A stretch of 64,000 nucleotides of DNA from BD2-11 clade cluster bacterium bin43 (GTDB taxonomy: Bacteria; Gemmatimonadota; Gemmatimonadetes; Longimicrobiales; Gaopeijiaceae): contig MPMR01000004.1 of NCBI GenBank assembly GCA_002238605.1, positions 1-64,000 on the forward strand, read 5' to 3'. Each line of letters begins with the position of its first letter. The stretch's first letter is position 1. The notes below the pieces were generated by a model. It saw nothing but the letters and a program-made list of their open reading frames with translations, ran no database searches and was not told the DNA's origin. Below are positions 273 through 44,960 of the stretch, in pieces. The translations under genes were made by a program, and so were the position numbers.

Positions 273-782
273 GGAATCTCCTGAGTGATGGGAATGAATA
301 CCGGCCTGAGGCGGCTGGAGAGAGTCGCGTGCCTTCGGATAAGCAAAGGTGGTGCCAGTTTGGGAACCTTCATATTTCTCAAGCAGTTACGGACTATCCT
401 TCTGCTCCACGGCACAGGCTCATCGGTGAAAATCCTCGGATAATCGAGGATCAACGCTGTTTTCTGAATATGACGAAAGCGATGGTTATACATCGATATT
501 GACCTACACTGTCCTCCCGCTTGTCGCATGCCGTGATCAGAAACCCGGCTCTCAAGATACCGGCTCACCTTCCGTCGCCATAGTGACAATAACGAGGACT
601 TGAAAGGACACAAACGATGACGGCTACCCGGCTCGCGCCCCTGCTATTTGATAGGCGCCTATGATTTGATAGGCGTGACAAAATGGTGACTCTGCCCTAC
701 TGGTATTGTCGGGCTCACTAGTGGGCAAGGAAGTCGCCGCGATGGTCGCTCGCGCATCCTGCTCCCAGGGACGGCGTGGCGG
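273..782. other. Intergenic region with hairpin and short direct repeats
   Basis: About 510 bases separate the left lipoprotein gene from the AraC-like regulator. It is AT-richer than its surroundings and I recognise no gene in it. It contains an inverted repeat with 7-bp arms (ATCCTCG / CGAGGAT, 432-451) and two copies of TTTGATAGGCG 18 bp apart (647-657 and 665-675). The second repeat lies about 110 bp before the regulator start and could be part of its control region. An open frame of 114 codons on the minus strand has no recognisable protein character. Confidence 0.5.
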
Positions 783-1646
783 ATGGAATCGGAACGAACT
801 GTCTACTCTCTGTATTGCACGGACGACGATCTTGGAGACCGACTCGAGCGGGTGCTCCGCGGTGTCGCCGTCCAGCGAGTGAGGTCAAGAAGGGCACTCG
901 TGGCGGCGTCCGTGAGCACTCGGGCGGCGGTCGTCGGCATCACCGCGTGCTCCGATACCGAGATCGCATGGCTGCGGTCGGGCTTCGGGCTTCTGGGTCC
1001 GCCTTGCGTCGTGGTGGCGCGCCTCTCGGTGGGCTGCGTGCGACGATTGCAAGCGCTCCGTTCCGGCAGGGTGCGGGTCATCTGGGCGGACGAAGTGGAA
1101 AGCCGCCTCGTCGAGGTCCTGGAGGGCTTCGCGGGGACGCACCGGGGTCCGATGTGGCGGCTCGGCGTGAAGCTGCTCTCCGATCACTCCTTCAGACCTT
1201 CACTCCGGGAGACCATCAGCCGGGTCTGCGGCCTGCACGACGATGTCGGGGACGCCCCGTTCATCCCGGCAAACTCGGTCGGCCGACTGGCGCGCCGCGT
1301 CGATCTGGCCCCTCCTACGCTGAGGCAATACTGGAGGGAGGACATGCCCCTCCGGTGCAGCCTGAAGGAATTTCTGAGCTGGGCGGTCATCCTCTGGGCC
1401 GTGCGCGCTCGCTCGCGGGACGGCTGGAACGCCATCGCCGACCGGGCGGGACTGCAGCGCCGCACCCTGCAGAGGAACTTCAACCGGCTGGCTGGCTGTA
1501 CGCTCACCGCGGCGGCCGAGGATCCGGAGCAGGTCGTTCGGCGATTCAACGAATGGGTCGATTCGGTGTGGGAGCCCCACGCCGGCAACGGGCCCGGGAA
1601 ATCCCATCCGGTTCCCGCGCGGGCAGCCGTCGAGCGGATATCGTGA
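783..1646 (+). CDS. AraC-like helix-turn-helix transcriptional regulator
   Basis: This 287-residue protein has a C-terminal DNA-binding half that fits the two-HTH layout of AraC/XylS regulators. The first HTH is near residues 166-186 (GRLARRVDLAPPTLRQYW) and the second near 214-236 (WNAIADRAGLQRRTLQRNF). The N-terminal half resembles a degenerate receiver-like alpha/beta domain without a clear phospho-acceptor motif. The stop codon overlaps a GTG start of the following TnpB-like frame (GTGA, 1643-1646), so the two may be translationally coupled. The target genes are unknown. A link to the downstream TnpB-like gene is suggested by position only. Confidence 0.75.
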   Translation: MESERTVYSLYCTDDDLGDRLERVLRGVAVQRVRSRRALVAASVSTRAAVVGITACSDTEIAWLRSGFGLLGPPCVVVARLSVGCVRRLQALRSGRVRVIWADEVESRLVEVLEGFAGTHRGPMWRLGVKLLSDHSFRPSLRETISRVCGLHDDVGDAPFIPANSVGRLARRVDLAPPTLRQYWREDMPLRCSLKEFLSWAVILWAVRARSRDGWNAIADRAGLQRRTLQRNFNRLAGCTLTAAAEDPEQVVRRFNEWVDSVWEPHAGNGPGKSHPVPARAAVERIS

Positions 1647-2689
1647 CCGTGGCCGGATCGACTTCCCGGCGTTACGTCGGCTGGCGCTGCAGGCTCTATC
1701 CGAGTCCCTCACAGGACGCGGCGCTGCACCGATGCAGGAACGGCCTGCGCGAGCTCTCCAATGAACTGCTCGTCGCCTCCCAACTCAGGTACGGGGAATC
1801 CGGACGGCGGCTCTCCCTGACCGAGATGCGCGCCTTCGCGCGGGACTGGAAGCGGCAGCCGGAGCACAGGGGGTTCCCCGCCAGCGCCACCTACCGCGTC
1901 GCCGACGATCTCGACCGCGCCTTCCGCATCTGGTTCAGCAAGCCCGGCCGACGTGGGCGCAGCGGGTTCCCCCAGCTGAAGGCCATCGGGGGAGAGCCCG
2001 GCATCTACTTCAGCAACCAGGGCATCCGCATCGAGGGCAGCCGGGTGTGGCTGCCCAAGTACGGCTCGGTGCGCTGGAAGGGCGGGAGGCTGCCCCCCGG
2101 GAGACTCGCGGGACCGTCCGGACGCAAGACCCTCGGTCTGCTCTCCGGACGAGTCTGGCTGGACGCGGGAAACCGGTGGATGCTCTCCTGCCTGTTCGAG
2201 TGCGAGCCGCTCACCCCTTCCAGGGCGAGAACGGACAAGGCCGCGGTCCGACAACACGGCCGCGAAATCACGGTGTCGGTCGACGGGGAATCCGTCCACG
2301 TGATCCGCGAGAGCAGGGCGCTCCGCAACGCCAGACGCCGCCTGGCAAGGCTCGAGCGGCGGCTGGAGCGATGCGAATTCAAGTCCGAAGGCCGCAAGCG
2401 CACCCTGGCTCTCATGCGCAACCAGGCGCGCAAGGTCCGGAACCATCAGGCGGATCTGCAGCACAAGGCCACGACCGGCGTCGTGCATGAAGCCCGCGAG
2501 ATCGAAGTCGAAGGCGCGAGCTCGGAACTGCTGCGCCAACTCGAATACAAGGCGGAGTGGCACGGCCGCCGACTGAAGGTACGGCGAGGCCCGCCGGAAC
2601 CGGGGACCGGCAATCCCCGACGCGCGCGGAGACCGGGGAGCCGGTCGCTGAAACGCGAATCGCGGACGCGAAGGTCGAAAGCCCTGTAG
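1643..2689 (+). pseudogene. TnpB/OrfB-like (IS200/IS605) gene, nuclease-dead and C-terminally truncated
   Basis: The 348-codon frame begins with the OrfB N-terminal pattern (WRCRLYPSPSQ, then CRNGLRELSNELL). It continues through the TnpB middle region (IYFSNQGIRIEG; VWLDAGNRWMLSC) to the helix-rich ALRNARRRLARLERR and QLEYKAEWHGRR signatures. Three lesions are visible. The RuvC-I motif expected as G-x-D-x-G reads R-Q-H-G-R near residues 203-207. Only about ten residues separate the RuvC-II glutamate (near 290) from QLEYKAEW, where family members have several dozen. The zinc finger and RuvC-III Asp are absent, because after about residue 313 the frame is unrelated arginine-rich sequence. It should not cut DNA. 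It may be a dying transposon gene or a domesticated RNA-guided binding protein. No TnpA partner is visible. Confidence 0.6.
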
Positions 2690-2761
2690 CCGTCTGCGAA
2701 GGCCGGAACGAATCAGGGGGGCCAGGCGATAGCCGACGCGAGGCCCGGGCGGGAACGAAAC

Positions 2762-7237: not shown

Positions 7238-8263
7238 TCACTCGCGGGAGAAAGGAGATGGCCGGGCGTCCCGGAGGGGTGACCGCGCCTCCCCGAGGGT
7301 CGGCCGGGCGTCGCCGAGGGTTGGCCGGGCGTCCCATAGGCGCATCGGATAGACCCCCGAGTCTACCAGCCCCCGCAGCGATCGGGCCACTCCCGCGTGA
7401 TCGCCGGGGAACGTGACGCCGAGCCACGGCTCCCGGGTGGGCAGGACGGTGCAGCGCGCGCGGTCCGCCGCGATGAGGTCGTTCACGGCCTCCGAGAGGT
7501 AGAACTCGCGGTCGAGCCCCGGTCCCGACGCGAGGAACGCGGCAAACAGTTCGCGCAGGGGCGCAAGGATGTCCGGCTGGAACCCCCAGAGGTTGGTGCA
7601 GACAGGGGCGTGCAGGGGCACCTCGAGCCGGCGGCCGGCCACGTCGCGGCCCACGGCGCGGTCGCCTTCGCGGCGGAGTTCCAGCCCCTCGGTCAGCCGC
7701 TGGAGCGCGCCCGATTCGTCGACCTCGCAGAGGCCGCGGGAGACGCCCCCGCTCTCCGACAGGGTGCCCCCGAGGGGGTATCCGATGGTGAAGGTCTGGA
7801 TCGGTTTGGGCCGCGCACCGCGCACCGCCCACCCATCCGCCTGCTGGTCCACGGCGATACCGAGCGTCGCGTACGCCCCCCGCCCATAGAAGTCGTCCGC
7901 GTTGCACACCGCGAAGGGGCCGTCGACCCGTTCGCCCGCGGTCAGGACCGCGAAGCCCGTGCCCCAGGGGCGGGTTCGTCCGGATGGGGGGTCATCCACC
8001 AGCCCCGGATGGGCCATCCGCTGGTACGCGTAGAGGATGTCGAGGTGGGCTGCCGCGTCGCGAAGATGCGCGTCGAAGTCGGGGCGAAGCGGCTCCTGGA
8101 TGACGAGCAGGAAGCGCTTGAACCCGGCGAGCGCGGCATCGTAAAGGGCGTAGTCGAGGAGGGCTTCCCCGCCCGGGCCGATGGGCGCGAGCTGCTTGAG
8201 GCGGCCGAACCGCGTGGAACGGCCGGCCGCGAGGATGACGAGGGTGAGGGCTGGGCGAGACAT
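7238..8263 (-). CDS. Sugar-phosphate nucleotidyltransferase family protein
   Basis: This protein of about 341 residues opens with the nucleotidyltransferase signature LVILAAGRSTRFGRLKQLAP (GT-A fold, nucleotide binding). The metal-site motif AVCNADDFYG follows. It probably moves an NMP onto a sugar-1-phosphate, such as the galactokinase product, but the exact sugar and nucleotide are not shown. The start chosen is the ATG at 8263, which places the signature at the N-terminus; longer in-frame starts would overlap the divergent epimerase promoter. The last 30 residues are four imperfect seven-residue repeats (DARPTLG, DARPTLG, EARSPLR, DARPSPF). It is first in the symporter-galK operon. Confidence 0.8.
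   Translation of the reverse strand: MSRPALTLVILAAGRSTRFGRLKQLAPIGPGGEALLDYALYDAALAGFKRFLLVIQEPLRPDFDAHLRDAAAHLDILYAYQRMAHPGLVDDPPSGRTRPWGTGFAVLTAGERVDGPFAVCNADDFYGRGAYATLGIAVDQQADGWAVRGARPKPIQTFTIGYPLGGTLSESGGVSRGLCEVDESGALQRLTEGLELRREGDRAVGRDVAGRRLEVPLHAPVCTNLWGFQPDILAPLRELFAAFLASGPGLDREFYLSEAVNDLIAADRARCTVLPTREPWLGVTFPGDHAGVARSLRGLVDSGVYPMRLWDARPTLGDARPTLGEARSPLRDARPSPFSRE
7258..7340. repeat. Four imperfect 21-bp tandem repeats at the 3' end of the nucleotidyltransferase gene
   Basis: Units built around GGCCGGGCGTC followed by CCGAGGG recur about every 21 bases and encode the seven-residue C-terminal repeat units. The period is a multiple of three, so repeat number can vary without breaking the frame. 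Confidence 0.7.
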
Positions 8264-30068: not shown

Positions 30069-31538
30069 ATGAAAGCGAGTGTCCCCCTGATCGGCGTGGC
30101 CCTGTCTGGCGCACTCGCGGGCTGCGCCCCCGCCAGCGATGCTCCCACCGCCGGCGGCCGGATGGCCGCCCGCGTCGACGCCATTTTCGCCGACTATGCA
30201 AGCGCTTCAGGCCCCGGCTGCTCCCTGGGCGTGATCCGGGACGGCCGCCTGGTCCACGCCACGGGCTACGGCGCCGCCAACCTCGACCACGGCATCCCCA
30301 ACGGGCCCGCGACCATCTTCCGCATCGGCTCGGTCTCCAAGCAGTTCACGGCCGGGGCGATCGCCCTGCTGGCCGTCCGGGGCGAGCTGGAGCTGGATGC
30401 TCCCGTGCAGCGCTACATCTCCGAGTTTCCGGACTACCCCGAGCCTCCCACCGTCCGACATCTAATTCATCATACCTCGGGGGTGCGCGACTACATCGTG
30501 CTCATGTCCCTGGCGGGCAACCGCAGCGAGGACTTCTACACCAACCAGGAGGTTCTCGACGCGATCACGCGGCAGCGCGAGCTCAACTTCACGCCGGGCG
30601 CGGAGTACCTGTACAGCAACGCGGGCTATTTCCTGCTGGGCGAGATCGTGGCCCGGGTCTCGGGGCAGAGCCTGCGCGAGTTCGCCGAAACCGAGTTCTT
30701 CGGCCCGCTGGGCATGACCCTCACGCACTTCCACGACGACCACAACGAGATCGTCCCCAACCGGGCCATCGGCTACGCCCCCAGCGACGATGGCTTCCGC
30801 ATCAACGTGACCACGCTCGACATGGTCGGGGACGGCGGCATCTTCACGTCGGTGGAGGAGTGGGTCGCGTGGGACCGAAACCTCACCGAGGGCACGGTCG
30901 GCGGGCCCGAATGGGTGGCGCTCATCCACGAGCGCGGCGTGCTCAACTCGGGCGACACCATCCCCTACGCCTTCGGCATCTCCCACGGCGAGCACCGCGG
31001 GCTGGCAACGGTTGGGCACGGGGGCTCGTGGGTCGGGTACCGGGCGGCGATGTCGCGCTATCCCGAGGCCGGCCATTCGTTCGTGGCGCTCTGCAACCGT
31101 TCGGCCATCGACCCCGGGACCCTCATCGCGAGCACGGCGGAGATCTACCTGGAAGACCGGATGGAGCCGCCGGAGGACGCCGCGGAGGGGGAAACAACCG
31201 ACGAGGCTGCGGAACAGGCACCGGAGGAGGCCGCCGCAGACGACGCCTCGCAGGATGAACCCGACCTCGACATCCCGAACCGCGCGCGCTACGCCGGATC
31301 GTTCTACAGCCCCGAGCTGGACACCACCTATCGCATTGCAGTGGAAGGCGATGCCGGACTCACGTTGCACGTGGGCCGCCTGGACCCGGCCGCGCTGATG
31401 ACCGTTTCGGACGGCATGCTCACGAGCGAGCGAGGGTGGACGCTCCGGTTCTCGCAGCTGGCCGACGGTCGCCACCAGGCGATGATGGTCGATGCCGGGC
31501 GGGTCAAGAACCTGCGGTTCGCACGGGCCGAGGGGTAG
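30069..31538 (+). CDS. Beta-lactamase-like serine hydrolase, lipoprotein
   Basis: This 489-residue protein has a lipoprotein signal (ALSGALAGC, cysteine at 19). The penicillin-binding/class C beta-lactamase fold follows. The nucleophile motif is SVSK (S88, K91). A YSN motif sits in EYLYSNAGYFLLGE, and GHGGSWVGYRA is the third motif. An acidic linker rich in Glu and Ala leads to a small C-terminal beta domain (RYAGSFYSPELDTTYRI). Such proteins are esterases, peptidases or amidases. It is 12 bases before the sterol-reductase-like gene and probably co-transcribed. An ATG at 30033 is an alternative start. Confidence 0.85.
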   Translation: MKASVPLIGVALSGALAGCAPASDAPTAGGRMAARVDAIFADYASASGPGCSLGVIRDGRLVHATGYGAANLDHGIPNGPATIFRIGSVSKQFTAGAIALLAVRGELELDAPVQRYISEFPDYPEPPTVRHLIHHTSGVRDYIVLMSLAGNRSEDFYTNQEVLDAITRQRELNFTPGAEYLYSNAGYFLLGEIVARVSGQSLREFAETEFFGPLGMTLTHFHDDHNEIVPNRAIGYAPSDDGFRINVTTLDMVGDGGIFTSVEEWVAWDRNLTEGTVGGPEWVALIHERGVLNSGDTIPYAFGISHGEHRGLATVGHGGSWVGYRAAMSRYPEAGHSFVALCNRSAIDPGTLIASTAEIYLEDRMEPPEDAAEGETTDEAAEQAPEEAAADDASQDEPDLDIPNRARYAGSFYSPELDTTYRIAVEGDAGLTLHVGRLDPAALMTVSDGMLTSERGWTLRFSQLADGRHQAMMVDAGRVKNLRFARAEG

Positions 31539-31550
31539 CGGCATCCGACC

Positions 31551-32690
31551 ATGATTGAATGGCTTGGCATCGGCCACCTCTTCGAGCTCTCCCCGCCGGA
31601 AGCGGTTGCGGGCTTTCTCACCCCGCTGGTGATCTTCGCCGCGTTCTTCGTAGCGCAGCTCGTGCTGCCGGGAAGGCGGGTGCCGGGCTACGTCGTCAAC
31701 CCGGAGACCGGCAGACCCCGCAACTATCGGCTGAACGGCATTCTGGTGTTCGCCATCGCGCACATCGCGTGGGCGCTCGAGCTCACCGGGATGCCGCTCG
31801 ACTGGTTCTACCGGTCCTCGGTCTACGCGGTGGCCGGTGGAACGGTCCTGTGCCTCATCCTTGCCCTCCTGGCGGTGTTCGGAGGGTCGCAAGACAAGGT
31901 GGACAAGCCGCTCGCCGCGCTGTGGGAGGGACGCGCCCGGGAGCTGTCCTTCTTCAACGAGCGCATCGACGTGAAGATGTACCTGTACGTCGTGGGCGGG
32001 ACGATGCTGACGCTCAACGCGATGTCCGGAGCTGCATACCACTATGGGTTATTCGGCGAAGATGCCAACCCGGGCGTCTTCCTGTACGCGGGGTTCCTGA
32101 CGTTCTACGTCCTGGACTACTTCATCTTCGAGCGGGTCCAGCTGTACACCTATGACGTGATCCACGAGCGCATGGGCTTCAAGATGTTCTGGGGCGGCCT
32201 CATGGTGTACGGATGGCTCTACATCCTGCCGCTGTGGGGCATGGCCGTGTACCCGGACCCCGGCTTGACGCCGCCGGGGAGGTACGTCTGGCTCATTGGG
32301 TCGGCCGCGCTCTTCCTGGTCGGGTGGGGTATCGCGCGGGGCGCCAACATGCAGAAGTACACCTTCAAGCGATGGCCGGAGCGCAAGTTCCTCGGGCTCA
32401 TCGAGCCGGAGTACATCGAGGCCGGAGACCGCAAGATCCTGTGCAGCGGCCTTTGGGGCGTCGCCCGCCATTTCAACTACCTGGGCGAGGGGTTCTTCTC
32501 CCTGGCCATCGCCCTGGCGTTCGGCTACTTCGCCAACCCATGGGCCTGGACCTACTTCGTCTTCATCGTCGGGCTCTTCATCGTCCGTCAACGCGACGAC
32601 GACAGGCTCTGCGCCGAGAAATACGGCGCCGGGAAGTGGGCGGAGTACCAGGCACGGGTGAAGTACCGGATCATTCCCCGGATCTACTGA
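31551..32690 (+). CDS. ERG4/ERG24-family sterol reductase-like membrane protein
   Basis: This 379-residue polytopic protein is strongly like the sterol C14/C24/C7-reductase family in its C-terminal part: CSGLWGVARHFNYLGEGFFS, the RQRDDDRLCAEKYG block and the ending WAEYQARVKYRIIPRIY. These residues contact NADPH in the family. Roughly eight to ten hydrophobic segments are visible. It should reduce a double bond in a sterol or a related isoprenoid lipid. A serine hydrolase gene lies 12 bases before and a TonB receptor 20 bases after, so they likely form an operon. Confidence 0.82.
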   Translation: MIEWLGIGHLFELSPPEAVAGFLTPLVIFAAFFVAQLVLPGRRVPGYVVNPETGRPRNYRLNGILVFAIAHIAWALELTGMPLDWFYRSSVYAVAGGTVLCLILALLAVFGGSQDKVDKPLAALWEGRARELSFFNERIDVKMYLYVVGGTMLTLNAMSGAAYHYGLFGEDANPGVFLYAGFLTFYVLDYFIFERVQLYTYDVIHERMGFKMFWGGLMVYGWLYILPLWGMAVYPDPGLTPPGRYVWLIGSAALFLVGWGIARGANMQKYTFKRWPERKFLGLIEPEYIEAGDRKILCSGLWGVARHFNYLGEGFFSLAIALAFGYFANPWAWTYFVFIVGLFIVRQRDDDRLCAEKYGAGKWAEYQARVKYRIIPRIY

Positions 32691-44725: not shown

Positions 44726-44960
44726 TCATGAGTCGCGCAGCCCGCGTCTTCACCATCTCGTCGACCTCGGCCATGGCCTGCCGGGTTTGCGCGTTCGGTA
44801 CCTTGAGTTCGAGCGGGAAGGCCTGATCTACGGCAATTCGGTGGAAGAGCAGCCGTACAGCCTGCGACGCGGTCATCCCCATCGCCGCCAGCGCCGTCGT
44901 CGCCTTCCGCTTCATTTCGGTGTCCATCCGAACGTGTAGCATCGAACTGTGTGCCTTCAT
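44679..44960 (-). CDS. DinJ/RelB-type antitoxin
   Basis: This 93-residue antitoxin has an N-terminal ribbon-helix-helix region (MLHVRMDTEMKRKATTALAA, then MTASQAVRLLFHRIA). The C-terminal toxin-binding tail is acidic (SADEMFAELEEASRE). An AGGAGG ribosome site precedes the ATG at 44960. An inverted repeat TCTCATTTGAGA (44975-44986) lies just before and may be the operator for autorepression. The module sits between the TRAP binding-protein gene and the permease genes. The first 62 or so bases are shared with the lipoprotein gene start at 2.76 kb. Confidence 0.9.
   Translation of the reverse strand: MKAHSSMLHVRMDTEMKRKATTALAAMGMTASQAVRLLFHRIAVDQAFPLELKVPNAQTRQAMAEVDEMVKTRAARLMSADEMFAELEEASRE

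Follow-up and report, generated by a model that had tools for sequence, protein, structure and literature searches.

A truncated, nuclease-dead TnpB with a putative guide-RNA scaffold beside giant surface lipoprotein genes in Candidatus Palauibacter

A truncated TnpB and its partner gene

The window analysed here comprises the first 64,000 nucleotides of contig MPMR01000004.1 (assembly GCA_002238605.1), from a member of Candidatus Palauibacter, a genus of sponge- and coral-associated Gemmatimonadota. Near its start lies an open reading frame (ORF 1643-2689) that an earlier note, made from the sequence of the window, had read as a truncated, nuclease-dead relative of TnpB coupled to an AraC regulator, and possibly as a TldR (i.e. 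one of the TnpB-like, nuclease-dead repressors associated with fliC and csrA; PMC13418256). The frame and its coordinates proved exact, as did the lack of an internal stop and the GTGA overlap with the stop of the upstream gene, and the homology to TnpB is real: NCBIfam guided_TnpB matches the ORF at E=1e-18 (though under its curated cut-off), a PDB sequence search with the family profile matches the solved TnpBs 8h1j and 8bf8 at E~1e-21, and the top Foldseek matches of the predicted fold (mean pLDDT 72) are all TnpB or Cas12f (8h1j at E=4e-20). The protein is referred to below as dTnpB.

Alignment to ISDra2 TnpB also bears out the lesions that had been noticed. The catalytic Asp of RuvC-I (in the ISDra2 motif GVDVG) aligns with Arg203, an Arg common to all truncated copies; the RuvC-II Glu (E290) is kept, while the Nuc region is shortened by a partial deletion and neither RuvC-III nor the zinc finger is present. 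The D-E-D RuvC site of active IS200/IS605 TnpB is, in other words, not intact.

The AraC assignment of the upstream gene fared less well. A helix-turn-helix (HTH) region is present at the C-terminus of this partner protein, where the model is helical, but its match to Pfam HTH_18 (E=0.009; range 0.003-0.009 over searches) stays below the cut-off, the list of fold matches showed no prominent AraC-type chain (in itself no proof), and a search against solved-structure sequences gave nothing significant. The fold search matched mainly the N-terminal domain, which is receiver-like: the KdpE receiver fits it best, at Z 13.5 with an rmsd of 2.6 across 115 residues. Since the xTGA overlap is kept in most copies, translational coupling of partner and dTnpB is likely. 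Two further paralogs of the partner occur without tnpB on contig G000:C26, one of which adjoins a surface-type gene and has a GAF/histidine-kinase gene close by.

Table 1. Features at the start of the window, with strand and basis
Feature	Position	Strand	Basis or remark
Giant surface lipoprotein gene, 5' end, cut by contig start	3-272	-	Uncut copies elsewhere
Intergenic region separating the divergent lipoprotein and HTH genes, presumed promoters	273-782	.	Up to ~483 shared with other cassettes; promoter role presumed
Partner regulator: receiver-like domain without evident phospho-acceptor Asp, C-terminal HTH region	783-1646	+	Fold search, weak Pfam match
GTGA stop/start overlap	1643-1646	+	xTGA overlap kept in most copies
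Truncated nuclease-dead TnpB (dTnpB), 348 aa	1643-2689	+	ORF list, profiles, fold, alignment
Arg203 codon in place of RuvC-I catalytic Asp	2249-2251	+	Alignment to ISDra2 TnpB
RuvC-II Glu290 codon, retained	2510-2512	+	Alignment
C-terminal tail of 37 codons, overlying the RNA scaffold	2576-2686	+	Divergence analysis, structure model
Omega-RNA/gRNA-like scaffold, homologous to that of full-length TnpB relatives	2578-2716	+	Constraint, alignment, covariance model
CCCTG, proposed pseudoknot 5' arm	2682-2686	+	
CAGGG, proposed pseudoknot 3' arm, scaffold end	2714-2718	+	
Putative guide, start approximate (2717-2719)	2719-2735	+	

Copies, neighbours and the putative RNA scaffold

Besides the window gene, the host genome carries two further truncated copies (86% and 75% identical) and a 43% identical relative. 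Across this genome and nine of the ten other Palauibacter genomes, 18 close copies share identical lesions; in a search of 98 related genomes the truncated gene was present in these nine genus members, in one to several copies each, and the one genome without it is only 67% complete. A profile search of 395 genomes of the phylum extended the truncated form to a sister genus in the same family, whose copies (~50% identity) have the identical Arg at RuvC-I and the identical deletions, and more distant copies of this deeper branch exist in Palauibacter too. A single origin of the truncated form fits the tree, in which support is moderate (83/86). The same genomes also encode full-length dead TnpBs (G000:C36:30406 and G003:C10:34711), in which the Asp residues of RuvC-I and RuvC-III have both become Ala. 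A near-identical copy of the G003 protein, together with the lipoprotein, was seen in a genome from another family of the class (L178, G154:C25), which may reflect horizontal transfer or contamination. Two longer sister-genus TnpBs (L179 and L180; G344:C120 and G412:C455), in which Ala replaces the RuvC-I Asp and an additional Cys-rich stretch is inserted, lie near other giant surface-type proteins and look like a further dead lineage. The G000_C36b and C10/C19 copies are found near genes resembling conjugation genes.

The partner gene precedes dTnpB in 17 of the 18 close copies (it is absent there in the deeper branch), and nearly all close copies with long enough flanks sit opposite a lipoprotein of ~1,500-1,600 residues. 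The window, whose contig begins inside this gene, shows only the first 90 residues; uncut lipoproteins (~1,500-1,600 aa) contain CarboxypepD_reg, SdrD_B and SpaA repeats. In one branch dTnpB is the second gene of an operon, after the receiver-like/HTH regulator and divergent to the lipoprotein gene. Three close members of the lipoprotein family are encoded in the host genome, and next to every one of them lies a dead tnpB, truncated at two loci and full-length at the third. Sister-genus copies face lipoproteins of 1,811-1,985 residues or adjoin FN3 or other giant proteins, and at three loci the lipoprotein gene lies immediately opposite dTnpB. The likely candidate for a regulated neighbour, not named in the earlier note, is this giant surface lipoprotein. 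As for the assembly itself, the window and G000:C60 start at the same point inside the lipoprotein gene (positions 1-272 of each), which suggests that near-identical repeats between copies (through recombination or gene conversion) broke it.

The 3' end of the gene evolves in a different manner from its core. Synonymous divergence drops fivefold, from 0.31 in the core to 0.06 in the tail, while the tail has a pN/pS of 0.66 (i.e. relaxed protein constraint) and its residues 312-348 are mostly disordered in the structure model. Nucleotide divergence is ~0.03 across the last 60 bases up to position 2716 and 0.53-0.70 in the next bases, and this abrupt boundary, 27 bases past the stop codon, falls exactly where the guide of a TnpB would begin. 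The 139-nt scaffold aligns with the matching stretch of full-length relatives, its covariance model matches 10 of the 11 genus genomes (some of the copies having no intact tnpB next to them), and in two copies where a one-base deletion ends the protein early the DNA is conserved to the same base regardless. Judged from these sequence comparisons, a scaffold like that of a guide RNA (gRNA) is retained and under strong constraint at the RNA level. Read by eye one frame over, the tail DNA resembles an ordinary TnpB C-terminus, and it therefore seems that a deletion shifted the frame and made a new tail; a protein tail overprinted in this way on a guide-RNA scaffold would be an unusual course of gene evolution. 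The proposed five-base pairing of CCCTG with CAGGG is intact in 12 of the 18 copies, the remaining six have one or two mismatches in it, and the deeper branch has TTGAGT and ACTCAA at similar places (pairing read by eye). If this pairing is real, the guide starts near 2719.

Several arrangements of repeats were seen along the way. At L044 (G003:C50; likewise G010:C20), ~2 kb with an apparent AbiEi-type gene lies between two directly repeated copies of the dTnpB tail plus scaffold (215 bp, 98% identical; 7730-7944 and 9905-10119 of L044), as might result from the insertion of an element at the end of the scaffold that regenerated it. At L008 three tandem scaffolds (G000:C36:30079-30231, 31532-31679 and 31837-32003) surround a full-length dead TnpB; two of the three have no intact tnpB of their own, and the set may be a small gRNA array. 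In the window, a ~62-bp intergenic repeat (2762-2823) precedes a beta-propeller-like gene and recurs at 44892-44953 on the minus strand and in G006.

Decay, mobility and the search for targets

The alternative named in the earlier note was simple decay, i.e. a broken tnpB that stays open by chance in a GC-rich genome. The loss of the active site and C-terminus would suit it, individual simulated neutral branches of comparable length kept the frame open 11-54% of the time, and one sister-genus copy (G235) has in fact decayed. Yet more than 20 copies carry identical lesions and nearly all are open frames, the gene overlaps its partner and recurs in nine of ten relatives, and core dN/dS is low: mostly 0.14-0.35 among close copies (0.18-0.35 when the window copy is compared with the others, 0.14-0.34 for close pairs), with a median of 0.28 and a maximum of 0.59 over all pairs including the deep branch. 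A dS of 0.3-0.5 moreover speaks against very recent duplicates. The checks that the note had proposed, conservation of the HTH-dTnpB pair and low dN/dS, thus came out in favour of domestication, and the close copies show neither scattered stops nor an intact TnpB in their place. The gene is under purifying selection and kept rather than decaying; simple decay is excluded as the main explanation and very improbable. It could also be that dTnpB travels as the passenger of a mobile element; its sharp 3' boundary would then be no more than the right end of a transposon, the copies of which moved in trans. The boundary does coincide with the expected IS605 right end, and the gene downstream of the window cassette is present in all 10 relatives (near full-length in nine) with the cassette missing at that site, which indicates that the window cassette moved or was rearranged. 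Against a passenger stand the purifying selection on the protein, the absence of a Y1 transposase (PF01797) from the 11 draft genus genomes (positive controls matched; IS607-type serine transposases were not searched), and several other copies that share both flanks across species and look vertically inherited; we consider it improbable.

The lack of a target weighs against RNA-guided function. With up to three mismatches, the window guide has 22 matches in the whole genome (itself included), where its reversed control has 18; for the C60 guide the counts are 56 and 66. Neither a guide conserved in four orthologs nor a sister-genus guide has a target above chance, and in local prefix matches non-cognate guides fit a locus at least as well as the cognate ones. 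Guides also differ between some orthologous loci, at G009_C23 and G007_C34 the guide lies in the end of a neighbouring gene, and RNAalifold predicts a structure with essentially no covariation, because the sequences are too alike; Rfam has no match within the window. A 14-nt guide match at G000:C28:260942 was discarded, as it lies between the ends of two converging genes, not in a promoter position, and a single match of this kind is no more than chance allows. Six guide bases suffice for a characterised TldR (PMC13418256), which is below what a genome scan can detect, and the negative searches are therefore not decisive. Alternatively, the protein might bind its own 3' RNA just to regulate its operon or partner (as autoregulator or RNA chaperone), the downstream bases being no guide at all. 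Such a role would account for the missing target, the variation of guides between orthologs and the short hairpins that follow the scaffold in the deeper branch (read by eye), but not for a scaffold that ends exactly at the expected guide start, and known dead relatives of this layout target DNA (PMC13418256); it seems rather unlikely. The TldR proposal of the earlier note accordingly stands in part: the tests for domestication are favourable and the scaffold is constrained, whereas RNA-guided repression gained no target from the searches, for which reason the claim is kept at TldR-like.

A possible RNA-guided switch and its known relatives

A domesticated, RNA-guided dTnpB is the explanation we favour, with somewhat better than even confidence; we read the gene as a probable RNA-guided switch and not as one in decay. 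An IS200/IS605-type TnpB would have been captured in the Palauibacter lineage; as the sequence shows, it lost its nuclease through the RuvC-I Asp to Arg change and the deletion of part of Nuc, RuvC-III and the zinc finger, but kept the putative RNA- and DNA-binding lobes and the 3' scaffold. The protein would then bind RNA made from its own 3' end, the few bases past the scaffold (after 2716-2718) would guide it onto DNA without cutting, and its occupancy would block transcription, most likely within the surface-protein regulon; the HTH partner may set expression or act at the divergent promoter. Domestication with a retained gRNA is highly likely, RNA-guided DNA binding is reasonably probable, and for control of the surface-protein genes the chances are about even. 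That in host-associated Gemmatimonadota switch and partner together select which giant lipoprotein is expressed, each cassette having its own short guide, is a tentative idea and less likely than not.

The TldRs described derive from TnpBs with an inactivated nuclease domain, and the best-studied cases are linked to flagellin genes. The present lineage would be another case of a dead TnpB beside cell-surface genes and suggests exaptation in a distant phylum, one that survived the loss of the whole C-terminal nuclease/zinc-finger region, with the gain of a two-component-style partner and attachment to giant surface proteins. With it, a minimal RNA-guided DNA binder can be put to the test, and there is a hint that surface properties of sponge and coral symbionts are under RNA-guided control.

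On its sequence features, dTnpB can be regarded as a new, C-terminally truncated TldR-like lineage. With TldRs (features taken from PMC13418256) it shares homology to TnpB, an inactivated RuvC, a gRNA scaffold retained at the sequence level and a tight, stable linkage to non-transposon genes including those for surface structures (17/18 close copies have the HTH partner, and giant surface proteins adjoin in two genera). It differs in the deletion of RuvC-III and the zinc finger, the tail overprinted on the scaffold, the receiver-like/HTH partner, the giant lipoprotein instead of flagellin as neighbour, the gemmatimonadotal host and a guide for which no target was identified. The nearest known kind is TldR, above all the csrA-TldR loci, where a TldR and a second regulator lie beside flagellin genes, several per genome (PMC13418256); dTnpB too is paired with a second regulator and present in one to several copies per genome. 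ISDra2 TnpB (PDB 8bf8/8exa/8h1j) has the same fold in its N-terminal lobe and RuvC core and an RNA scaffold after the gene, whereas in dTnpB the catalytic Asp is replaced and the C-terminal part missing, and a search of the genus turned up no Y1 transposase. The full-length dead TnpBs of the same genomes come closer, with ~43% identity, a homologous scaffold and the same lipoprotein family adjoining, but they lost both catalytic Asp residues to Ala, and no HTH partner was found beside them.
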